In this document: positions 18,544-30,284 of the stretch, piece by piece
Position numbering within the stretch: position 1 is the first letter of the stretch
Layout: every line of letters begins with the position of its first letter
From: Desulfarculaceae bacterium
Lineage (GTDB): Bacteria; Desulfobacterota; Desulfarculia; Desulfarculales; Desulfarculaceae
Direction of reading: 5' to 3'
DNA: 64,000 nucleotides
NCBI GenBank assembly: GCA_021737145.1
Contig: JAIPEN010000003.1
Location: forward strand, 1-64,000
Position numbers and translations under genes: made by a program
The notes under the pieces: generated by a model
Told to the model about the DNA's origin: nothing
Databases searched by the model: none
The model's input: only the letters and a program-made list of their open reading frames with translations

Positions 18544-19017
18544 CTAGCATCTCCCCCCGCTCCCGGCGGACGGCCGGGCGGCGCGCCGGGGCGCTTGGCT
18601 AAGTTTTTTCAAATGGGATTCCAAGGCGGCCGGGCTGGTGCAGTTGAGCGGGCAAAAAGGGGTGGAGCAGAGCTTGCACTGCTTTTTGACCACGTTCAGG
18701 GCGGCGTGGGAGTTGATGGGGGTAAGAAAGACCACCAGGTCCGACTTGCTCACCATCTGGCGCAGGCGGCGGGCCCCGGAGCGCACCTTGCCGGTGTGGC
18801 ACATGCAGGAGCCGCCCATCTGCTCGATCACCTCGGTGTAGTTCTTTTCCAGTCGGTCCAGCCCGCCAATCACCGCCACCTGACGCCCTTGCAAGGGGCA
18901 GCTCTCCCGGACCGGGCACTGGCAGGGGCAGGACCGGCCGCAGCGTGGGCAGGGATTTTCCATGGCTTCCAGGGACATGAGATGGCCGGGTTGTTTGCGG
19001 TGCGCCGAGCGGGACAA
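18544..19017 (-). CDS. DUF2325 domain protein with N-terminal Cys cluster
   Basis: A 157-residue protein. After a cysteine-rich N-terminus (CPRCGRSCPCQCPVRESCPL) comes the DUF2325 core: VAVIGGLDRLEKNYTEVIEQ, HTGKVRSGARRLRQMVSKSD and LVVFLTPINSHAALNVVKK. A further CKLCSTPFCPLNC cluster follows. DUF2325 has a Rossmann-like fold of unknown role. A TTG start at 19017 is preferred because AGGAG lies seven bases upstream; the first ATG (18978) has no ribosome site. The iron-box-like motif at 19051 suggests iron control. Confidence 0.75.
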   Translation of the reverse strand: MSRSAHRKQPGHLMSLEAMENPCPRCGRSCPCQCPVRESCPLQGRQVAVIGGLDRLEKNYTEVIEQMGGSCMCHTGKVRSGARRLRQMVSKSDLVVFLTPINSHAALNVVKKQCKLCSTPFCPLNCTSPAALESHLKKLSQAPRRAARPSAGSGGRC

Positions 19018-19050
19018 GGCTGAGCTCCTTTTATGTTTTAGATGATTTAT

Positions 19051-19074
19051 ATTGTTAGTAGCACCTAACTTTAT
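19051..19074. promoter_or_regulatory. Second copy of the feoA-type operator
   Basis: ATTGTTAGTAGCAC followed by CTAACTTTAT, a GTTAG/CTAAC inverted repeat, lies 34 bases before the DUF2325 start. It shares 16 of 23 positions with the feoA motif. Confidence 0.5.
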
Positions 19075-19112
19075 CGTGGTCAAGTGTTTTTTGCAGATCG
19101 GCGCAGGCGGGA

Positions 19113-19148
19113 ATAAAAAAAAGAGGCTGCCGAAAACCCGGGAGCCTC
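19113..19148 (-). terminator. Terminator of the nif operon
   Basis: On the minus strand GAGGCT...AGCCTC forms a hairpin followed by eight T and then ATT. It lies about 100 bases beyond the nifB stop. This is a textbook intrinsic terminator. Confidence 0.8.
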
Positions 19149-19248
19149 CCGCCGGTAGGAGGGAAAGACCGTGGCCCGGCATCACCCGTGGGCCACCCCG
19201 GCTGGGCCCGGACCGGCGGCGCCGGCCCGGCCTCCAGCCGCAAATCGC

Positions 19249-20523
19249 TCAGCAGCAGCCCATGCCCTCGCCCGAGCCCATGCCGCCGCAACAGGCCTTG
19301 CCCTTGCGCACCCGCATGGCCGAGAGATCGTCGCCCGCATAGATGGCCTTTAGCGCTTCCTCGATGAAGCCGCCCACCTCCAGGGCCTCCACCCCGTAGC
19401 CGGCCAACACCGCGCGGGGGGTCTCCCCTATTCCGCTCACCAGCACGTTGCGGCAGTCGTCCAGGGACTCGGCCAGTCGCTTCCAGCGCAGCTCCCCGTC
19501 GCCGGACGGGGGGGCGGGCCGCGTCTCGATGAGCTCGAAGCCGTCCACCCCCGGGCCCCAGATCTGAAACTCGGAGGCCTGGCCCAGGTGCAGGTTGACC
19601 AACAGGCCCTCCCGGCTGGCCACGGCCACATGGGGCCGGGTCAGGTCCATGGGTTCGGGCAGCTTGCCGCAGGAAGACAGGCAGCCGGCCATCTCCTTGC
19701 TCTTGTCCTGGCCCAACAGGCCCACCGCGTCGGCCCGGCAGCGGGTGCAGTGGGTCATCTGGTTCATGTGCTTGCCGCAGATCTCCCGTAGCGACTGCAT
19801 CAGGGGACGGCTGGGCTCTCCCCGGCTCTCGAAGGGGGTGCCCTCGGTGGGGTACATGGGCATCAGGTTCATCAGGTCCGCGCCCAGTTCGGCCCCCCAG
19901 CGGGCCACCTCCTCCACGTGGCCGTCGTTGACCCCGGGGATGACGATGGTGTTTAGCTTGACCACGATGCCCCGCTCCTTGAGCCCGGCCACCGCCTCGC
20001 GCTGGCGCGAAAGCAGCAGGCGGGCCGCCTCCTCGCCGCGATAGGCCATCTTGCCGTCCTTGACCCAGGCGTAGATCTGGCCGCCGATGGCCGGGTCCAC
20101 CGCGTTGATGGTGATGGTCATGTGGGTGACCCCCACTTCGGCCAGCTCGTCCAGATGCTCGGGCACGGCCAGCCCGTTGGAGGACAGGCAGTAGAGCATG
20201 TCGGGATAGCGCCGGCGGACCTGGCGCATGGTCTCCAGGGTGCGCCGCGCGTTGGCCATGGGATCGCCGGGGCCGGCGATGCCCGCCACCGAGATGCGGG
20301 GCTCGGCCGCCAGCACCTGCTCCAGATAGGCCACGGCCTGGTGGGGAGCCAGCACCCCGCAGGTCACGCCGGGGCGCGACTCGTTGACGCAGGAGTACTT
20401 GCGGTTGCAGTAGTTGCACTTGATGTTGCAGGCCGGGGCCACGGGCAGGTGCACCCGCCCATGAGAGCCCTTGGCTCCGCGGTTGAAACAGGGATGCTTG
20501 GCGCTGATGTCGTGTGCTTCCAT
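19249..20523 (-). CDS. nifB: Nitrogenase FeMo-cofactor biosynthesis radical SAM protein NifB with NifX-like C-terminal domain
   Basis: A 424-residue protein. The NifB core has HPCFN at residues 10-14, then CNIKCNYC with the SAM-cluster cysteines C32, C36 and C39. Further family blocks are AGPGDPMAN, CTRCRADAVGLL and SSCGKL. From about residue 310 a NifX/NafY-like cofactor-binding domain follows (NLHLGQASEFQIWGP), ending in a GMGSGEGMGCC tail. It makes NifB-co, the 8Fe-9S-C core of FeMo-co. ATG 20523 follows AGGGGAGACATC. It is the last gene of the operon. Confidence 0.96.
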   Translation of the reverse strand: MEAHDISAKHPCFNRGAKGSHGRVHLPVAPACNIKCNYCNRKYSCVNESRPGVTCGVLAPHQAVAYLEQVLAAEPRISVAGIAGPGDPMANARRTLETMRQVRRRYPDMLYCLSSNGLAVPEHLDELAEVGVTHMTITINAVDPAIGGQIYAWVKDGKMAYRGEEAARLLLSRQREAVAGLKERGIVVKLNTIVIPGVNDGHVEEVARWGAELGADLMNLMPMYPTEGTPFESRGEPSRPLMQSLREICGKHMNQMTHCTRCRADAVGLLGQDKSKEMAGCLSSCGKLPEPMDLTRPHVAVASREGLLVNLHLGQASEFQIWGPGVDGFELIETRPAPPSGDGELRWKRLAESLDDCRNVLVSGIGETPRAVLAGYGVEALEVGGFIEEALKAIYAGDDLSAMRVRKGKACCGGMGSGEGMGCC

Positions 20524-20533
20524 GATGTCTCCC

Positions 20534-21910
20534 CTATAGGTATCCGTAACCCACATCGGAATCGTCCTGCTTCTTGGCCAATAGCGCGTTGACCAGGCGG
20601 TCGTAGAGTTCCTGGGCCCCCTGGTAGCCCAGCAGGCGAACCCGCTGGCCGCCGATGCGGTCGTGGATGGGAAAGCCCACCCGCACCAGGGGCGCGCCCA
20701 GCTCGCGGGCCATGTTGTAGCCCTTGGAGTGGCCCACGATGATGTCGGGCTTCAGCTCCCGGCTCAGCTCGGCGATGCGGTAGAAGTCGATGCCCGCCTC
20801 CACCCGGGGCGCCTGGCGGGTCAGGCCCTCGCAAAACTCGCTGATCTTTTCGCCGAAGCCCACGGCCCGGCCGCCCGAGGCGCAGAGCACCGGGGTGATC
20901 CCGATCTCGGCCAAGAAGGCGCTCAGGCCGATGACCAGGTCCTGCTCGCCGTAGACCACCGCCCGCTTGCCCGAGAGGTACTTGTGGCCGTCCACCATGG
21001 AGTCCAGCAGACGGCCCCGCTCCAGGGCGTGCTTGTCCGGGGTGGGCTTGCCGCTGATCTGTTCAAGCGCGGCGAAAAACTCGTCGCTGGCCCTGAGACC
21101 CAGGGGCAGGCCCGGGCTGTGCAGGCTCACCCCGCAGCGCTCGGCCAGGTCGCGGCCCGCGTCCTGGGAGGCCGGGGTCCAGCCCAGGGCAAGGCTGGCC
21201 CGAGCCCCGCCCATGGCCTTGATGGCGGCCAGGGGGGTGCCTCCCTGGGGCAGGATCTCGTAGCTCAGGCTCGCCGGGGCGTCCAGGGGGCGCGAGTAGT
21301 CGGGCAGCAGGGTGGCCTCCAGGCCGAAGTCCGCGGCCACTGCCTGCAAATAACGAATGTCCGCCGGGCTGATCAGGCCGGGCAGCAGGTTGACGCCCTC
21401 GTGGCGGGGCCCCGGCTCGGCCAGCTGGGCCACGGTGGCGGCCACCGCCGCGTAGAAGCCCTCCATGTGGGTGGCCGCGTAGGACGGGGTGGCCGCGTGG
21501 ATCAGGGCGGGCATCTCGGTGCGGGAGCCCTCCAGCACCGCCTCGCCCATGAACTCCTTGACGATGGCCGGCACGTTGTCCCCGATGGTCTCGGTGAGAC
21601 AAGTGGTGGCGATGCCCACCGCCTTGGCCTGGTACTTGTTGATCACGTTGACCAGGCCCTGCTTCAGGTTGGGCCCGCCGCCGAACACCGCCTCGCCCTC
21701 GCCCAGGGCGCTGGAGGCGATGTCCACCGGCTCGCGAAAGTGGCTGATCAAATAGCGCCGCATGTAGGTGGCGCAGCCCTGGGAGCCGTGCAAAAAGGGC
21801 ACGCAGCCCTCGATGCCCTTGAAGGCGATGCAGGCGCCCAGGGGCATGCAGGCCTTGCAGGCGTTGGTGGAGGAAACATAGTCGCGCTTGGGGGCCAGGT
21901 TGTTTTTCAT
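20534..21910 (-). CDS. nifN: Nitrogenase cofactor scaffold subunit NifN
   Basis: A 458-residue NifK-like protein with NACKACMPLGACIAFKGIEG, GSQGCATYMRRYLISHFREP and TTCLTETIGDN. The cysteines that bind the P-cluster-like FeS centre of NifEN are kept. With NifE it forms the scaffold on which NifB-co is matured to FeMo-co. Start ATG overlaps the nifE stop (ATGA). Ten bases separate it from nifB. Confidence 0.93.
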   Translation of the reverse strand: MKNNLAPKRDYVSSTNACKACMPLGACIAFKGIEGCVPFLHGSQGCATYMRRYLISHFREPVDIASSALGEGEAVFGGGPNLKQGLVNVINKYQAKAVGIATTCLTETIGDNVPAIVKEFMGEAVLEGSRTEMPALIHAATPSYAATHMEGFYAAVAATVAQLAEPGPRHEGVNLLPGLISPADIRYLQAVAADFGLEATLLPDYSRPLDAPASLSYEILPQGGTPLAAIKAMGGARASLALGWTPASQDAGRDLAERCGVSLHSPGLPLGLRASDEFFAALEQISGKPTPDKHALERGRLLDSMVDGHKYLSGKRAVVYGEQDLVIGLSAFLAEIGITPVLCASGGRAVGFGEKISEFCEGLTRQAPRVEAGIDFYRIAELSRELKPDIIVGHSKGYNMARELGAPLVRVGFPIHDRIGGQRVRLLGYQGAQELYDRLVNALLAKKQDDSDVGYGYL

Positions 21911-23274
21911 GACAACGCCTCCAGACGGGGCCGCGCCTTGCGGGGGGTGAAGCGCCACACCGGGCTCAGGGCGGTGGCGTGCACCTCCTCGGCGAAGTTG
22001 AGCATGCCCACGAAGCCCTCCAGGGCCAGCTTGCGCTCGTGGTTGTGGTCCACGAAGCCGATGCCCAGCTTGTGGGCGATGGGCCGCTCCTTGACCCCGC
22101 CCACGAACACGTCCACGTCCTTTTCGATCAAGTAGGTCATCAGCTCCAGGGGGTTGGCGTCGTCCACGATCACCGTGCCCGGCTCGCAGATTTCGGCCAG
22201 CTCCTCGTAGTCTTCCTGGGTGCCGGTCTGGGATCCGGCCAAAACCACCTTCATGCCCAGCAGGCGGAAGGATTTGATCAGGCTGAAGGCCTTGAAGGCC
22301 CCGCCCACGTACAGGGCGGCCCGCTTGCCTTCCAGGTCTTTCCTCAGCTCCATGAGCCGGGGGTAGATCTCGCTCAGCTCCCCGCGCACCAGCTCCCGGG
22401 CCTTGGCCATTGCTTCCTCGCTCTCAAAAAACTCGGCCACGTCGTAGAGGGCCTGGGCCATGTCGTCCACCCCCAAATAGCTCACCCGCTTGAAGGGAAT
22501 GCCGTGGGTCTCCTGCATCATCTTGGCCAGCTCCATGGTGGAGCCGGAGCACTGCACCAGGTTCAGCGCCGCGCCGTGGGCCCGCTGCACGTCGGCCACC
22601 CGGCCGTCGCCGGTGATGTTGGCCACCACGCTCACCCCCATGCGCTCAAGGTATTTCCGGATGATCCATATCTCGCCGGCCAGGTTGAAGTCGCCCAGCA
22701 GGTTCACCGACATGGGCGGGATGCCCGTGGTGTCGCCGGTGCCCACCAGGCGGAACATGGCCGCGCAGGCCGCGTAATAGCCGGCCCGCTTGTTGCCCTT
22801 GAAGCCCTCGCTCATCACCGGGATCACCGGGATGCCGTGGCGCCGCTGGGCCATCTTGCACACCGCCGAGATGTCGTCGCCGATGAGCCCCACCATGCAG
22901 GTGGAGTAGACAAAGGCCGCCTTGGGCTTGTGCAGGGGGATCAGTTCGTCCAGGGCCCGGGTGAGCTTGGACTCGCCGCCGAAGATCACGTCGGTCTCGC
23001 CCAGGTCGGTGCTGAAGGAATAGCGGTGCAGCTCCGGGCCCGAGGACAGGGCGCCCCGGATGTCCCAAGTGTAGGAGGCGCAGCCGATGGGGCCGTGGAT
23101 CAGGTGCAGGGCGTCGGCAATGGGATAGAGCACCACCCGCGAGCCGCAGAACACGCAGGCCCGCTGGCTCACCGCCCCGGCCAGGCTTTGCTTGTCGCAG
23201 CTTATGCGGAAGGGCTTGTCGCCGCCCTTTTCATAAATCTGATCCTCGCGTTCGGCAAATATCACCTGGGACAT
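21907..23274 (-). CDS. nifE: Nitrogenase cofactor scaffold subunit NifE
   Basis: A 455-residue protein of the NifD/NifE family. It has ACVFCGSRVVLYPIADALHL, HGPIGCASYTWDIRG and STCMVGLIGDD. It follows the GNAT gene by 10 bases and precedes nifN with a 4-base overlap; order and pairing with nifN distinguish it from a second nifD. Confidence 0.94.
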   Translation of the reverse strand: MSQVIFAEREDQIYEKGGDKPFRISCDKQSLAGAVSQRACVFCGSRVVLYPIADALHLIHGPIGCASYTWDIRGALSSGPELHRYSFSTDLGETDVIFGGESKLTRALDELIPLHKPKAAFVYSTCMVGLIGDDISAVCKMAQRRHGIPVIPVMSEGFKGNKRAGYYAACAAMFRLVGTGDTTGIPPMSVNLLGDFNLAGEIWIIRKYLERMGVSVVANITGDGRVADVQRAHGAALNLVQCSGSTMELAKMMQETHGIPFKRVSYLGVDDMAQALYDVAEFFESEEAMAKARELVRGELSEIYPRLMELRKDLEGKRAALYVGGAFKAFSLIKSFRLLGMKVVLAGSQTGTQEDYEELAEICEPGTVIVDDANPLELMTYLIEKDVDVFVGGVKERPIAHKLGIGFVDHNHERKLALEGFVGMLNFAEEVHATALSPVWRFTPRKARPRLEALS

Positions 23275-23284
23275 GGCTGCTCCT

Positions 23285-23743
23285 CTAAGTCGCCTTTTTG
23301 CGCAGGCAGATCATCCGGGTGTTTTCCCAGCCCAGACGGTGGTGAAAGTCCAATCCCTTGTCATTACCCCGGTCGGCCAAAAGCTGCATGCGGGTGGCTC
23401 CCCGTGCCCGGGCCCAGGCGGCCAGGGCCCACATGAGCCCGCTGCCCACGCCCCGGCCCCGCCACTGCGGGGCCACCACCAGGTCCTCGGCCCACAGGGA
23501 CCAGGCCCCTTCGGCGGTGGAGACCACCAACTGACCGGCCACCATGCCCAGGGCCGCGCCTTGGGCCTCGGCCACCAGCAAGCGGGCGTTGGGCGAGGCC
23601 AGGAGCATCTCCAGGCCCCGCTCCTGCCGCTCGGAGTCGATGGCAAAGTCCCGCTCCACCGCGAACAGCAGACCCAGCAGCCCGCTCAGGGCGGGCAGGT
23701 CCGCGGCGCGGGCCGAGCGTATGGTGAACTGGGCGTGGCTCAT
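23285..23743 (-). CDS. GNAT-family N-acetyltransferase inside the nif operon
   Basis: A 152-residue GNAT fold protein. It starts FTIRSARAADLPALSGLLGL and has the acetyl-CoA-binding motif A (VVAPQWRGRGVGSGLMWALA) and the typical end FHHRLGWENTRMICLRK. The substrate is unknown. It lies in tight series between the [2Fe-2S] ferredoxin and nifE, so it is expressed with nitrogenase. A role in acetylating a Nif protein or a small metabolite is inference only. Confidence 0.85.
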   Translation of the reverse strand: MSHAQFTIRSARAADLPALSGLLGLLFAVERDFAIDSERQERGLEMLLASPNARLLVAEAQGAALGMVAGQLVVSTAEGAWSLWAEDLVVAPQWRGRGVGSGLMWALAAWARARGATRMQLLADRGNDKGLDFHHRLGWENTRMICLRKKAT

Positions 23744-23759: not shown

Positions 23760-24062
23760 TCAGGCGATCAAATATTGCTCGGGCGGTTCGCCGTCTTCCA
23801 GGCCATCCAGGATGGCGTCGATGGCCTCCTCGCTGTCCACGCCCTTGAACCACCAGTTGTTGGGCTGCACCACCATGGCCGGCCCCTGATCGCACTGCTT
23901 GAGGCAGCCGGTGGCCACCACCATGCAGTCCAGGCCGCGGTCCAGGATCTCTTCTTCCAGGTACTGCAAAAAGCCGTCGGTCTTCTTGTGGCAGATGCCC
24001 TTTTGGTCTCCCTTGAGGCGGAAGCTCTGACAGACCAGAATCTGATTGGCCGGAATTCCCAT
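23760..24062 (-). CDS. Thioredoxin-like [2Fe-2S] ferredoxin
   Basis: A 100-residue protein of the thioredoxin-fold [2Fe-2S] ferredoxin family, with cluster cysteines in VCQSFRLKGDQKGICHKK and ATGCLKQCDQG. Such ferredoxins are found in many nif clusters and may serve electron transfer to nitrogenase or FeMo-co assembly. ATG 24062 follows AAGGAG with eight-base spacing. It lies between the NifB-like gene and the GNAT gene. Confidence 0.9.
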   Translation of the reverse strand: MGIPANQILVCQSFRLKGDQKGICHKKTDGFLQYLEEEILDRGLDCMVVATGCLKQCDQGPAMVVQPNNWWFKGVDSEEAIDAILDGLEDGEPPEQYLIA

Positions 24063-24111: not shown

Positions 24112-25278
24112 TTACTTTTTGCCGCCCTTTTTCTTGCCGCCGCCGAAGAGCACGTCCACCAGGCCCTCCACGTTGCCTTCCTGGATGAGCACCGGCAGGC
24201 CCTTGTCGGCCAGGATGCGCCGGGGCGATTCGCCGGCCGCGGCGGCCAGCACCGCGAAACAGTCGCTGAGCACCAGATAGGCCTGTTGCCAGCGGGTGTC
24301 TCCGTCGCCGGGCTCCGGGGCGGGCCGCGTCTCCAAGAGCACCACCGGCCCGTCCTGGGGGCCGTAGATCAAAAAGCGGCCGGCCTGGCCCAGGTGCAGG
24401 TCCACCTCGAAACCGTCCGAACTGCACACCGCCAGGCAGGGCTTGTGCTTGCTGGGCTTGGGCAGCACCACCTGGCTGGCGGCGGGCTCGCCGGAATCCC
24501 ACTCCACCGCCTCCATGCAGGCGGCCAGGTCCACCGCCTGGGCGGGCAGGTGCCGGGCGGCCAACCCGGCCAGACGCTCCAGCTCGGCCGGATCAGCCGG
24601 CTCGCAGGGCTGGGGACAGTCATCGCCTTTGGGCAGGAAGGGGAACAGCTTCATCTCGCTCACCCCCAGCTCGGCCGCCCGCTGGGCGATCTCGCCGATC
24701 TGCTCGGGGTTGATCCAGGGGTAGAGGGTGGTCTTTATCTGCACCGGCACCCCGGCCTCCACCAGGGCGGCGATGGCGTAGGGCTGCTCCTTGACCAGGG
24801 TCTTGGCCGCCTCGCTCAGGGGCAGGGTGCGCTTGCCCGGGCGTATCCAGGCGTAGATGCCTTCCACCACCGCGGGGTCCACCGCGTCCATGAGGATGGA
24901 CACGTGGGCCAGGCCCAGCTTGGCCAGCTCGGGGGCCACCTCCGCCGCGCCCAGGCCCAGGCTGGTCAGGCACAGGCTGACCCCCGGGTAGCGCTCGCGC
25001 ACCAGGGCCAGGGTCTTGAGGCTCAGCGCCGGGGTGGCCAGGGGGTCGCCGGGGCCGTTGAGGTTAACCACCTCGATGGCGTCGCCCTGCCCTTCCAGAT
25101 AATCTAGCCAGTTCAGGGCCTGCTCCGGGGTCAGGGCCCGGGGCAGGGGTTCATCCGGGATGAAGCGCACCCGGGCCAGGGCCCGGGGCGCCACCGGCAG
25201 GTGGATGCGCCCGGAGGAGCGGCGGTGGTCGGCGCAGAAGTCCGGGGCTGATTCGTGGTCGATAATTTCAGTCATCAT
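24112..25278 (-). CDS. NifB-like protein lacking the radical-SAM cysteines, with NifX-like C-terminal domain
   Basis: A 388-residue paralogue of the NifB encoded at 19249-20523. It aligns along its whole length: GRIHLPVAP (residues 23-31), NLNGPGDPLATPALSL, ILMDAVDPAVVEGIYAWIRP, and a C-terminal NifX-like domain (VDLHLGQAGRFLIYGP). At the place of CNIKCNYC it reads ALARVRFI, so all three SAM-cluster cysteines are gone; the CTRC pair is reduced to CPQPC. It cannot be a normal radical SAM enzyme. The frame is intact and lies right after nifK with a ribosome site, so it is probably an active carrier or scaffold for NifB-co or FeMo-co. This role is inference. Confidence 0.85.
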   Translation of the reverse strand: MMTEIIDHESAPDFCADHRRSSGRIHLPVAPRALARVRFIPDEPLPRALTPEQALNWLDYLEGQGDAIEVVNLNGPGDPLATPALSLKTLALVRERYPGVSLCLTSLGLGAAEVAPELAKLGLAHVSILMDAVDPAVVEGIYAWIRPGKRTLPLSEAAKTLVKEQPYAIAALVEAGVPVQIKTTLYPWINPEQIGEIAQRAAELGVSEMKLFPFLPKGDDCPQPCEPADPAELERLAGLAARHLPAQAVDLAACMEAVEWDSGEPAASQVVLPKPSKHKPCLAVCSSDGFEVDLHLGQAGRFLIYGPQDGPVVLLETRPAPEPGDGDTRWQQAYLVLSDCFAVLAAAAGESPRRILADKGLPVLIQEGNVEGLVDVLFGGGKKKGGKK

Positions 25279-25321: not shown

Positions 25322-26701
25322 CTACATCACCAGTTCGAAGCTCTGCTCCGGGTCGTCGCGGTCCTTGCGGTCCAGCAGGGCGTTGAGAATCTTCTCCAGC
25401 AGCCGGATGCCGCCCTTGTAGCCCACGGTGGGGAAGTACTGGTGGCCCTGCCGGTCCAGGATGGGGAACCCCCAGCGCACCAGGGGGATGTCCTCGTCCC
25501 GGGCGATGTACTTCAAGTAGGAGTTGCCGATGAGAAGGTCCACCGGCTCGTTCTTGATCCACTGGTGCAGCAGGAACATGTCCGCCGTCTGGTCGCACTT
25601 GACGTTGACCTCGTAGGGCAGGCCGGCGGTCAGCTCCCTGATGCGCTTTGCAAAGGCCTTGCCCGGGGTGCCGCTGACCACGTGGGTGGGGCACATGTCG
25701 ATGGAGACCAAAAACTCCACCATGGAGATGAGCTGGTCCGGATCGCCGGCCAGGGCCACCTTCTTGTGGAAGAAGTACTGGTGCATGTCGCTGATGATAT
25801 CCACCAGCTGGCCGCGCTCGTGGCTCAGCTCCTCGGGAACGCTGACCCCGGCGATGATGCGCATGGCGTCCACGAAGCGGTCGGTGGCCATGAGCCCGAT
25901 GGGCATGTCCAGCACCCGGCAGGGCACCTTGTTGTTGGTGTCCAGGTAGCGGGCCCCGTCGGCGCTGCACCACTCGCCCAGGGCCAGGGTGCCGATGGAG
26001 TCGCCGGCGCTCTGTAGCTCCGCCATGGTGGTGCCGCCCTCGGGGAACATCTTGTACTCGCCGGACAGGGGCCCGTTGAGAATGCCCGAGGTGTCGGGGA
26101 ACAGGATGATATCCACCCCAATGAGCCCGGACAGGCGCTTGATCTCCTCCATGTCGGCCGGCTCCACCCAGCCGGGGATCACGTTCACCTTGCCGTTTTT
26201 CACTCCCGTGGTCTCGGCCTTCATGGCCATACCCTTGACCATGTTGGAAAAGCCGGTCACGTGGCTGCCCACGTAACTGGGGGTGTTGGCGTAGATCACG
26301 TGCTTGCCCTTGGGGATCTTGCCGTCCTTGGTGGCCTTGTCGATGATCTGGGGCAGGTCGTCGCCGATGGTCTCGGACAGGCAGGTGGTGTGCACCGCCA
26401 CCACCTCGGGCTCATAGACCGTGAACATGTTGTCGATGGCCTGCAGCAGGTTGGCCTGGCCGCCGAAGACGCTGGCCCCCTCGGTGAAGGAGCTGGTGCC
26501 CGCGCTGATGGGCTCCTTGTAGTGCCGGGTCAGGGCGCTGCGGTGATAGGCGCAGCAGCCCTGGGAGCCGTGGCTGTGGGGCAGGCAGCCGTGCACCCCC
26601 AGCGCGGCGTACATGGCGCCGATGGGCTGACAGGTCTTGGCCGGGTTGATGGTCAGGGCGTGGCGCTCGGTTATCTCTTGAGGCGTATGTCTAAGCAGCA
26701 T
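25322..26701 (-). CDS. nifK: Nitrogenase MoFe protein beta subunit NifK
   Basis: A 459-residue NifK of the short anaerobic type, lacking the N-terminal extension of aerobes. P-cluster cysteines lie in KTCQPIGAMYAALGVHGCLP, GSQGCCAYHRSALTRHYKEP and TTCLSETIGDD. It ends FELVM. With NifD it forms the alpha2-beta2 dinitrogenase. Confidence 0.97.
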   Translation of the reverse strand: MLLRHTPQEITERHALTINPAKTCQPIGAMYAALGVHGCLPHSHGSQGCCAYHRSALTRHYKEPISAGTSSFTEGASVFGGQANLLQAIDNMFTVYEPEVVAVHTTCLSETIGDDLPQIIDKATKDGKIPKGKHVIYANTPSYVGSHVTGFSNMVKGMAMKAETTGVKNGKVNVIPGWVEPADMEEIKRLSGLIGVDIILFPDTSGILNGPLSGEYKMFPEGGTTMAELQSAGDSIGTLALGEWCSADGARYLDTNNKVPCRVLDMPIGLMATDRFVDAMRIIAGVSVPEELSHERGQLVDIISDMHQYFFHKKVALAGDPDQLISMVEFLVSIDMCPTHVVSGTPGKAFAKRIRELTAGLPYEVNVKCDQTADMFLLHQWIKNEPVDLLIGNSYLKYIARDEDIPLVRWGFPILDRQGHQYFPTVGYKGGIRLLEKILNALLDRKDRDDPEQSFELVM

Positions 26702-26728: not shown

Positions 26729-28372
26729 TTATTCCCAAACGTAGGTTGCCGAGAGTTCGGGGTTCTCTTGCCAGGGGGCCTTCATGTAGCCCCAGACCTT
26801 GCTGTTAACCAGGCGGTCGATCTCGCGGTAGAAGTTGATGGCTCCCTTGAAGCCGGCATAGGGGCCGCCGGAGTCGTAGGAGTGGAGCTGCTTCATGGGA
26901 ATGCCCAGCTTCTGGATGGAGAACTTCTCCTTGATGCCCGCGCAGAAGATATCCGGCTTGAGCATCTCCACCATCTTTTCGGCCTCGTACTGGTTAAGGT
27001 CGTCGATGACCATGGTCTTCTCGTCCATGTCCGGGATCATGCCGTCGTAGCTCTTGAAGTCCAGACCGGACTCGGCCAGGGCCTTGAGTTCCTCTTCGCT
27101 CTTGCGGGGGGAATAGAGGGCCTCGTCGGCCTCCACCTCCAGCTCTTCGATGTTGCGGCTGTCGGCGTCCACCTTCAGGCCCGGCAACACGTGGCGGCCC
27201 TCGTAGTCGTCGCGGTGGGCGAACTCGTATCCCGCGCTGATGGTCTTCATGCCCAGTTCCTTGAACAGCTCCTGGTAGTGATGGGCCCGGGAGCCGCCCA
27301 CGAACAGCATGGCCGTCTTGCCCTCGGTGCGGGGGCGCACCTCTTCGGCCACCGCCTGGACCGCGGGCATCTCCTCGGCGATCACCTCTTCCACCCGCTC
27401 GATCAGCTCCTGGTCGCCGAAGTACTGGGCGATCTTCCTCAGGCTCTTGGCCGCGGCCGAGGCCCCGATGAAGTTCACCTTGATCCAGGGGATGCCGTAC
27501 TTGACCTCCAGCATGTCGGCCACGTAGTTGATGGAGCGGTGGCACATCACCGCGTTCAGGTCGGCGGTGTGGGCGCTGGCGAACTGGTCGTAGGAGCTGT
27601 TGCCGCTGAAGGTGGCGTTGTTGGTGATGCCGCACTTGTTGAGCAGGCGGTCGATCTCGAATCCGTCGCCGCCGATGTTGTACTCGCCCAACAGGTTGAT
27701 GCAGTACTTGCCCGGCTTTCCCTCGTCCTCGGCGCCCACCAGGTGCCTAAAGACCTGGTTGTTGGCGATGTGGTGGCCGGCCGACTGGGACACGCCCTTG
27801 TAGCCCTCGCAGGAAAAGGCGAAGACGTTGCAGTCGCCGAACTTCTTCTTCATCTTGGCGGCCACGGCGTGGATGTCGTCGCCGATCAGGCCCACCGGGC
27901 AGGTGGCGAAAACACAGATGCCCTTGGGATGGAACAGGTCGTAGGCTTCCTGGATGGCCGCCTCCAGCTTTTTTTCGCCCCCGAAGATGATGTCCTTGTC
28001 CTGCATGTCCGTGCTGAAGCAGTAGGTCATGTAGTTCTGGGCATCCGGGGCGGTGGCGTCGGTCTGGTTGCGCCGGGTCAGCCAGGAGTAGAACCCGCAG
28101 CCGATGGGGCCGTGGGTGATGTTTACGATGTCCCGGGTGGGGCCCATGATCACGCCCTTGCAGCCGGCGTAGGTGCAGCCCCGCATGGTGATGATGCCGG
28201 GGATGGTGCGCACGTTGGCGGTGATCTCGGGGGTCTCGTTCTCCAGGGCCTCGTTGATCATGATCTGCTTGGCGCGCTTGCGGGCCACCTTGGGGGGATA
28301 CTTGCTGAGCATCTCCTCCTTGATGGCCGCCGGGTCCATGGGCGCCGCCTTGTTGTCATGGGCTGTGGTCAT
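26729..28372 (-). CDS. nifD: Nitrogenase MoFe protein alpha subunit NifD
   Basis: A 547-residue protein. P-cluster ligands are in RGCTYAGCKGV, GPIGCGFYSW and ATCPVGLIGDD. FeMo-co ligands are the Cys of MCHRSINYVAD and the His of QLHSYDSGGPYAGFKGAINF. It includes the roughly 50-residue internal insertion (about 390-440, Glu-rich) typical of clostridial/deltaproteobacterial NifD. ATG 28372 is chosen over the upstream ATG; it starts a typical short lead-in and follows GAGAGAG. Confidence 0.96.
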   Translation of the reverse strand: MTTAHDNKAAPMDPAAIKEEMLSKYPPKVARKRAKQIMINEALENETPEITANVRTIPGIITMRGCTYAGCKGVIMGPTRDIVNITHGPIGCGFYSWLTRRNQTDATAPDAQNYMTYCFSTDMQDKDIIFGGEKKLEAAIQEAYDLFHPKGICVFATCPVGLIGDDIHAVAAKMKKKFGDCNVFAFSCEGYKGVSQSAGHHIANNQVFRHLVGAEDEGKPGKYCINLLGEYNIGGDGFEIDRLLNKCGITNNATFSGNSSYDQFASAHTADLNAVMCHRSINYVADMLEVKYGIPWIKVNFIGASAAAKSLRKIAQYFGDQELIERVEEVIAEEMPAVQAVAEEVRPRTEGKTAMLFVGGSRAHHYQELFKELGMKTISAGYEFAHRDDYEGRHVLPGLKVDADSRNIEELEVEADEALYSPRKSEEELKALAESGLDFKSYDGMIPDMDEKTMVIDDLNQYEAEKMVEMLKPDIFCAGIKEKFSIQKLGIPMKQLHSYDSGGPYAGFKGAINFYREIDRLVNSKVWGYMKAPWQENPELSATYVWE

Positions 28373-28394
28373 TTGTGCTCTCTCTTTGCGTGCT

Positions 28395-28769
28395 CTAGTC
28401 GATGGCCTTGGGGCCGGTTTCCCCGGTGCGCACCCGGGCCGCGTTGCTGACCGGCAGGATGAAAATCTTGCCATCACCGGGCTTGCCGGTTTGGTTGGTC
28501 TCGATCAGGGTCCGCACCACGGGCTCCACGTTCCTGTCGGAGACCACCATGGTCAGCATGCGCTTGGAGTAGAGCTTGCCCTTCTCGCCCAACAGGGCGA
28601 TCGCTTCCTCGTACCCCTCGCTGGCCCCGGCCAGGATCTTCACGTCCACCAAGCCCTTGCCGCGCCCCTGACACTCATGGGCGAACATGGAGTCGATGCC
28701 GATCTTGGTAAGCGCCTGCTTGGTCTGGTTCATGGTGTTCATGCGCACCACGGCGATGATCTCTTTCAT
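28395..28769 (-). CDS. nifI2: PII-like nitrogenase regulator NifI2
   Basis: A 124-residue PII-family protein (MKEIIAVVRMNTMNQTKQAL, CQGRGKG at the T-loop, GKIFILPVSNAARVRTGETG). With NifI1 it forms the complex that, in archaea, binds and inhibits dinitrogenase when ammonium is present. The start overlaps the nifI1 stop by four bases. Confidence 0.95.
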   Translation of the reverse strand: MKEIIAVVRMNTMNQTKQALTKIGIDSMFAHECQGRGKGLVDVKILAGASEGYEEAIALLGEKGKLYSKRMLTMVVSDRNVEPVVRTLIETNQTGKPGDGKIFILPVSNAARVRTGETGPKAID

Positions 28770-29125
28770 GCCGTGGCCTCGGCTTCCTCCACCGGCGCGG
28801 TGTCGTGCACCCCGGAGCTGATGGTGAAGACGTCCTCCACCTCGCTGACGAAGATCTTGCCGTCGCCGAAGGCGCCCTTGCCCTTGGTGCGGGCCGCCTC
28901 CATGATGGTCTTGATCACGAACTCCTGATCCTCGCTGTCGATCACGCTCATCAGCATGGTCTTGGGGATCTCGTCGTAAGTGATCTGGCCGATCTTGATG
29001 CCCCGCTGCTTGCCGCGGCCGGCCACGGCGAATTTGGTCACCGAGGGGAACCCGGCGTCCATCAGCGCCTTGAGGACCTCATCGGCCTTCTCCGGCCTCA
29101 CGATTGCTCTCACCATAATCATCAT
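28766..29125 (-). CDS. nifI1: PII-like nitrogenase regulator NifI1
   Basis: A 119-residue PII-family protein (MVRAIVRPEKADEVLKALMD, GRGKQRGIKIGQ, GDGKIFVSEVEDVFTISSG). The position between nifH and nifI2 is diagnostic for NifI1 of the anaerobe and archaeal type of post-translational nitrogenase switch-off. Confidence 0.95.
   Translation of the reverse strand: MMIMVRAIVRPEKADEVLKALMDAGFPSVTKFAVAGRGKQRGIKIGQITYDEIPKTMLMSVIDSEDQEFVIKTIMEAARTKGKGAFGDGKIFVSEVEDVFTISSGVHDTAPVEEAEATA

Positions 29126-29159: not shown

Positions 29160-30284
<1,125 letters not shown>

Follow-up and report, generated by a model that had tools for sequence, protein, structure and literature searches.

The question of how FeMo-co and its precursor move among NifB, NifEN and NifDK is an old one and has mostly been studied in Azotobacter and Klebsiella. 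There, NafY and NifY bind the cofactor-less MoFe protein and leave upon cofactor insertion (PMC6016461; this and the other papers cited by PMC number are represented by extracts). NifX ligates NifB-co in NifENX through H35 (PMC13128457), and in NafY the corresponding His-Phe-Gly motif provides H121, the key ligand by which the NifX-like core binds FeMo-co, whereas the N-terminal domain binds apo-NifDK (PMC8496260). NifB itself is recognised by six fingerprint motifs: HPC, Cx3Cx2C, ExRP, AGPG, TxTxN and Cx2CRxDAxG (PMC5715403). Here we describe a related protein encoded in a nif operon of a Desulfarculaceae bacterium, within a stretch of 64,000 nucleotides (the window) of contig JAIPEN010000003.1. 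The gene, at 24112-25278 on the minus strand, and its product are both called pB, and the window's genome is referred to as own. pB is a NifB paralogue without the radical-SAM (RS) cysteines; on balance, we favour the reading that it belongs to a non-catalytic, NifB-derived clade and would work as a carrier or chaperone of the nitrogenase cofactor.

The pB frame comprises 388 codons with no internal stop; 43 nt separate its start from the stop of nifK, and 49 nt its end from a ferredoxin gene, in agreement with an earlier note on this DNA, which had reported a stop-free frame directly after nifK. The ribosome site claimed there is less clear, the upstream sequence AAGGGCAGG being only a fair match by eye. 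A chance open reading frame (ORF) is ruled out by homologues and synteny, and an assembly error or frameshift by the intact frame in independent genomes. The gene and its parts, all on the minus strand, are:

24112..25278 (-), pB, NifB paralogue without RS cysteines, 388 amino acids (ORF, NifB alignment, conserved clade)
25159..25182 (-), residues 33-40, ALARVRFI, replacing CxxxCxxC (alignment; R36 conserved in 37/43, R38 in 38/43 and F39 in 38/43 clade members)
24535..25212 (-), degenerate NifB-type radical-SAM barrel, residues about 23-248, GPGD and IRPG kept (domain search, model)
24145..24441 (-), NifX-like domain (PF02579), residues about 280-378, including His295 (domain search; His295 aligned to NifX H35)
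24115..24144 (-), Lys-rich tail, residues 379-388, replacing the Cys-rich tail of NifB (alignment)

pB and the NifB of the same operon (19249-20523, minus strand) are colinear over both domains, with 38% identity across residues 12-380 (E 9e-63), so that the alignment made in the earlier note, including the NifX-like C-terminal domain, is borne out. As that note had also seen, ALARVRFI stands where the operon NifB reads CNIKCNYC; in addition, about ten residues holding the ExRP loop of NifB are deleted and the Cys-rich C terminus is replaced. None of the six fingerprints named in PMC5715403 is intact in the window's pB. Besides the loss of Cx3Cx2C, the ExRP segment, the loop with the RS/K1 switch ligands, is deleted in pB and in 43 of 43 clade members; PDFC takes the place of HPC (clade member L058 does read HPC); NGPG replaces AGPG, with G-P-G retained; SILMD lies at the place of TxTxN; and at Cx2CRxDAxG, the site of the K2 ligands, the window's family (defined below) has a single Cys254 and no CxxC. 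The score against the NifB model TIGR01290 is 126.4 bits, below the cut-off of 343.65 bits. A true NifB with shifted cysteines is ruled out, as the frame contains no CxxxCxxC. Across 43 clade sequences the first and second RS cysteine positions are always lost, the third is Cys in two, and the loop Cys and Glu are deleted in all; these sequences were partly picked for the absence of CxxxCxxC, and the less biased count is 30 of 31 profile-found loci, plus the high-scoring phylum matches. With neither CxxxCxxC nor the switch loop, pB is left without the ligands of a radical-SAM cluster.

The overall likeness to NifB extends to structure. By sequence, pB matches the solved NifB structures 6y1x, 7bi7, 7jma and 7jmb (E 4e-25 to 5e-23); its match to NifX 9ian is weak (E 0.0094). 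A first AlphaFold2 model, from a mixed alignment, had a mean pLDDT of 76.6; a second, from 31 pB sequences, reached 84.4 (pTM 0.63), with values below 50 in three parts: residues 1-20, residues 255-269 and the tail. Neither model gives order to the first 20 residues, and no helix is predicted past residue 377. In the structural comparison that the earlier note had proposed, the best Foldseek matches were NifB structures, with barrel TM scores of 0.71-0.90 by target (five NifB chains listed). The first model also matched 9ian, which was not among the best 50 matches listed for the second.

pB is not an isolated variant. Among 98 genomes drawn as relatives, own included, five others carry full-length, stop-free orthologues (59-88% identity), which together with own form the six sequences of the window's family. 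A scan of genome_contigs with the window's pB alone gave no match; a profile of the six family members retrieved 31 loci, 30 of them without CxxxCxxC and the exception, L082, being a true NifB. This profile scan used two peptide patterns and is hence biased to members with YAWIRPG. According to record titles and NCBI ranks, the loci fall in Desulfarculia, Desulfobulbia, Desulfobacteria and Desulfovibrionia, apart from a few metagenome-assembled genomes whose assignment is missing or odd; four or more classes of Thermodesulfobacteriota are represented in the clade. Cultured carriers of pB include Desulfofustis glycolicus (L072) and Desulfopila aestuarii (L076). When 394 Thermodesulfobacteriota genomes with a completeness of 80 or more were searched by profile, 73 gave a match at E up to 1e-50. 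At least 17 of these carry pB, a count for which high-scoring matches only were considered and sequences were read for about half of the 73 genomes. In 15 of the 17, pB is accompanied by a second match with the score of a NifB; in the remaining two, NifB is present as fragments at contig ends. The NifB cysteines were read in part of these genomes only. Own holds no other full pB match besides the operon NifB, a third match being short and weak, and the D. vulgaris plasmids hold NifB and no pB. In N. vulgaris RCH1 (L086:9001-10446; NC_017311.1) the nifB match is in two pieces, of which only the NifX part is listed as a gene, unlike strain DP4, where nifB is a single frame; pseudogenes are not included in the plasmid gene table.

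In a tree of 43 pB and 38 NifB sequences (363 columns), pB forms one side of a single branch (support 100/100, stem length 1.02), with the caveats that two pB sequences are long and that the bootstrap is not fully settled. The simple reading is a single, probable origin by NifB duplication, within or before Thermodesulfobacteriota. Among the NCBIfam and Pfam models listed for 31 members, none singles them out; TIGR01290 and PF02579 each match 31/31, the latter at E up to 0.001. The earlier note's idea that the nif operon retains a NifB without catalytic activity is supported: pB belongs to one old, conserved clade of 43, all without CxxxCxxC. The homologue search suggested there places the clade nearly always between nifK and ferredoxin, and homologues that still carry CxxxCxxC, a sign of decay according to the note, are absent from pB, the only profile match of that kind being L082.

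Between distant genomes, it is the NifX-like domain of pB that is constrained. PF02579 scores 35.1 bits on pB against a gathering score of 26.3, whereas the NifX equivalog TIGR02663 is not among the matches listed for pB at E up to 0.001. The H-[FL]-G motif reads H295-L-G, and its His, like Asp293 and Cys340, is kept in 43/43; His295 aligns to NifX H35 (sequence-profile match to 9ian, E 0.00086). Domain constraint was compared in 14 genomes with both proteins, 13 of them scorable (the NifB of L064 is cut), the genome pairs sharing ancestry and therefore not being independent. In the 63 pairs with at least one genome from outside the window's family, mean identity is 40% for the pB barrel and 55% for its NifX domain, against 60% and 54% for the barrel and NifX domain of NifB. 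The NifX domain is the better conserved of the two in 63/63 of these pairs for pB and 0/63 for NifB, and with the window's family excluded in 21/21 and 0/21. The earlier note's general idea, largely supported, is refined by this result: constraint lies on the NifX-like domain rather than on the dead barrel. Cys285, considered as an extra ligand of this domain, was rejected (6/6 in the family, 6/43 in the clade). Small stand-alone NifX-like ORFs with HFG lie directly beside nifB at L129:2357-2695, L122:817-1143 and L046:8770-9078 (all minus strand).

dN/dS was calculated by Nei-Gojobori; codon bias is strong, so that absolute values are rough, and nifN against G004 (10 codons) was left out. Between own and its nearest relative, G006, values are 0.218 for pB, 0.184 for nifB, 0.213 for nifE, 0.239 for nifN and 0.188 for nifK. 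In this pair, substitution on pB is purifying, with a dN/dS of 0.22 like that of nifE and nifN. The decay outcomes that the earlier note had named were not seen, all six family members being full length and free of stops.

The operon runs in the order nifH, putative nifI1 and nifI2, nifD, nifK, pB, [2Fe-2S] ferredoxin, GNAT acetyltransferase, nifE, nifN and nifB, with these genes around pB:

29160..29984 (-), nifH (TIGR01287 above cut-off)
28395..29125 (-), two small genes between nifH and nifD (ORFs; no NCBIfam match at 1e-20)
26729..28375 (-), nifD (TIGR01282 above cut-off)
25322..26701 (-), nifK, directly upstream of pB (NCBIfam match)
23760..24062 (-), [2Fe-2S] ferredoxin, FdxN/thioredoxin-like type (NF041612, below cut-off)
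23285..23743 (-), GNAT-family acetyltransferase (domain match)
21907..23274 (-), nifE (NCBIfam match)
20534..21958 (-), nifN (best matches nifK and nifN, below cut-off; named by position)
19249..20523 (-), nifB with CxxxCxxC (NCBIfam match, motif)

The small genes at 28766-29125 and 28395-28769 we take, by position and recall, to be nifI1 and nifI2; their D. vulgaris counterparts are annotated as P-II family. Scans of the operon for sigma-70 promoters and terminators gave scores no better than shuffles. A GNAT acetyltransferase gene follows the ferredoxin in most nif loci examined, some without pB included, and a DUF2325 protein gene (18544-19185, minus strand) lies between nifB and two genes that are presumably feoA and feoB.

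In other genomes the place of pB is nearly invariant. Neighbours were assigned by tblastn with the window's proteins, and 'next' denotes the next recognised gene, within about 300 nt. nifK is next upstream in 6/6 family genomes, 10/10 further genomes and 25/27 testable contig loci (L068 has inserted genes and L077 other genes; L062 begins at pB), and the ferredoxin is next downstream in 6/6, 10/10 and 25/26 (L070 has none; L057 and L084, on stretches ending too soon, are left out). nifE, nifN and nifB follow in some loci, are kilobases away in L065, L066 and G199, and lie off the stretch read in L059, L069, L076, L085, G306 and G380. nifK adjoins pB even where nifEN and nifB are distant or on another contig, and the fixed unit is nifDK-pB-ferredoxin. 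The place after nifK is that of nifY in Klebsiella and Azotobacter, and it favours apo-NifDK over NifEN as the partner of pB.

As the catalytic Fe-S site has been lost while a possible cofactor-holding part has been kept, pB is probably a carrier or helper in nitrogenase assembly. His295 would hold NifB-co or FeMo-co, like H35 of NifX and H121 of NafY. More tentatively, the dead barrel may be a docking module, a counterpart of the N-terminal domain of NafY, and this module might bring the cofactor to apo-NifDK or prop the latter open. Binding of cofactor and of apo-NifDK are predictions from sequence, gene position and likeness to NifX and NafY. The carrier or scaffold function proposed in the earlier note remains the best reading, although the surrounding genes speak more for NifDK than for the step from NifB to NifEN, which was the note's first option.

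pB differs from each described relative. From NifB it is set apart by the absence of RS cysteines, switch loop and Cys tail and by its separate clade. It shares with NafY the His of the H-[FL]-G motif (PMC8496260), which NifY lacks according to the extract of PMC13128457; its N-terminal domain, however, is a degenerate NifB barrel, unlike that of NafY or NifY. The NifX-like domain resembles NifX in its profile match to 9ian, the match of the first model and the alignment of His295 to H35, but it is not stand-alone, and the helices by which NifX binds NifE (PMC13128457, in the extract) have no predicted equivalent past residue 377. Nor is pB a simple stand-in for a missing NifX, as the nif clusters of G013 and G016 have neither and G199 and G344 have both: among the matches listed, pB adjoins nifK and a separate small HFG-type NifX adjoins nifB in the latter two, as expected if pB is no simple NifX replacement.

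No description of an RS-less NifB of the pB type was found in the open-licence PMC papers searched, and pB would be a variant, new to the literature searched, of the NifX/NafY kind of carrier, with a putative function. The extract of PMC5715403 reports that 28% of 390 putative NifB sequences, most without Cx3Cx2C, were excluded as probable NifX; members of the pB clade may be among them. Many sulfate-reducing bacteria carry such a dead NifB copy right after a nitrogenase structural gene, and a similarity search alone would credit their genomes with two NifB proteins, so that NifB-like matches cannot be counted as NifB. If our reading is true, anaerobic sulfate reducers have built a carrier from the enzyme that makes its cargo, and pB is a single gene to test in diazotrophs with little-known assembly factors.

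Several observations weigh against the cofactor carrier or chaperone that we favour. Among G004, G005 and G010, dN/dS is higher for pB (0.24-0.38) than for nifB (0.20-0.26), nifE (0.12-0.17) and nifK (0.14-0.15). Inside the window's family both proteins conserve their NifX domain better than their barrel (pB 14/15 pairs, NifB 15/15), so that the shift in constraint is visible only at distance. NifB has the same His (37/37 sequences with letters there) and mostly the Cys340 equivalent (35/37), and His295 is hence no marker of the clade. The barrel retains conserved GPGD, IRPG and, at the former cluster site, ARxRF, which a mere spacer would not need; G75, G77, Y142, W144, R146 and P147 are kept in 43/43, the last four partly through selection of the sequences. 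Gene order is a weak guide to the partner of pB. In the sister genus g7 (G013, G016 and G017) nifK is followed directly by the ferredoxin, with one NifB and no pB in the nif cluster; the cluster stretches read contain no other NifX domain, so that assembly there does without pB (G013 and G016 each have, among the matches listed, one PF02579 match outside the cluster). G007, of the same genus as own and 82% complete, has no pB match, and its NifB is cut by a contig end.

The chief rival, which we regard as possible if somewhat unlikely, is a NifX-like carrier or buffer that would receive NifB-co from NifB and pass it on to NifE; it differs from an apo-NifDK chaperone in partner and cargo. The equivalence of the conserved His to NifX H35 speaks for it, as do the restriction of NifX domains in the window to nifB and pB, the run of genes that nifEN and nifB share with pB there, and the ready interface with NifB partners that NifB ancestry could supply. 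The linkage of pB to nifK and ferredoxin, with nifEN or nifB kilobases off or elsewhere in a number of loci, argues against it, as does the separate small NifX retained beside nifB in G199 and G344.

A more elaborate form of the carrier, which we consider doubtful, would handle the cofactor at two sites: His295 of the NifX-like domain might bind NifB-co or FeMo-co at one apex, and the mouth of the old active site, with the conserved Arg36 and Arg38 at the former place of the radical-SAM cluster, might hold the anionic cofactor or homocitrate and dock on apo-NifDK, one chain receiving and delivering the finished cofactor.

It is improbable that pB is a cluster scaffold whose barrel still binds a K1-type [4Fe-4S] or K/L cluster through Cys15, His26 and Cys103, with no SAM chemistry. 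In the alignment with Methanothermobacter NifB (7bi7), His26 falls exactly on H31 and Cys103 on C115, two K1 ligands (PMC9692996), and Cys15, His26 and Cys103 are all kept in 6/6 of the family while the RS ligands are lost. Cys15, however, although near the HPC Cys (C18) of NifB, is two alignment columns away, so that the two can only be presumed equivalent; its conservation, which the earlier note had wished to see examined, does not reach the wider clade. His26 is found in 15/43 and Cys103 in 7/43, and the two together with an upstream Cys also in 7/43 (the six family members and L057), which rules out K1-ligand retention as a general mechanism. The K2 pair is gone, and residues 1-20 are unordered in both models. 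The CPQPC pair named alongside Cys15 in the note is present in only two of six close relatives and was rejected as a metal site.

We give equally little credence to the idea that the RS-free barrel has gained a new function, enzymatic or regulatory, such as ligand sensing or control of NifB through mixed complexes: the conserved GPGD, IRPG and ARxRF at the former cluster site would suit it, but the barrel is the less constrained domain between distant genomes. A relaxed or decaying duplicate is already contradicted, for although the pB barrel is less conserved than that of NifB and dN/dS of own against G004, G005, G009 and G010 is higher for pB (0.36-0.56) than for nifK (0.17-0.29) and nifE (0.18-0.40), nifB (0.31-0.55) shows that pB is not out of line in these pairs, the closest pair is under constraint, and 43 frames form one clade with a conserved place and many invariant residues.

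Other NifB forms were noted in passing. A NifN-NifB fusion ORF occurs, by sequence reading, in Thermodesulfobacteriota (L017:1468-4158, minus strand), and in several other f4 and f45 genomes the NifB match lies in a frame of similar size, about 930-1100 amino acids (judged by length); the extract of PMC5715403 confines a three-domain NifB form to Firmicutes. G010 has a second NifB with CxxxCxxC (L051:9553-10668, minus strand), a frame without a NifX domain on a contig separate from the nif cluster, and shorter NifB matches are also found in G014 and G019.
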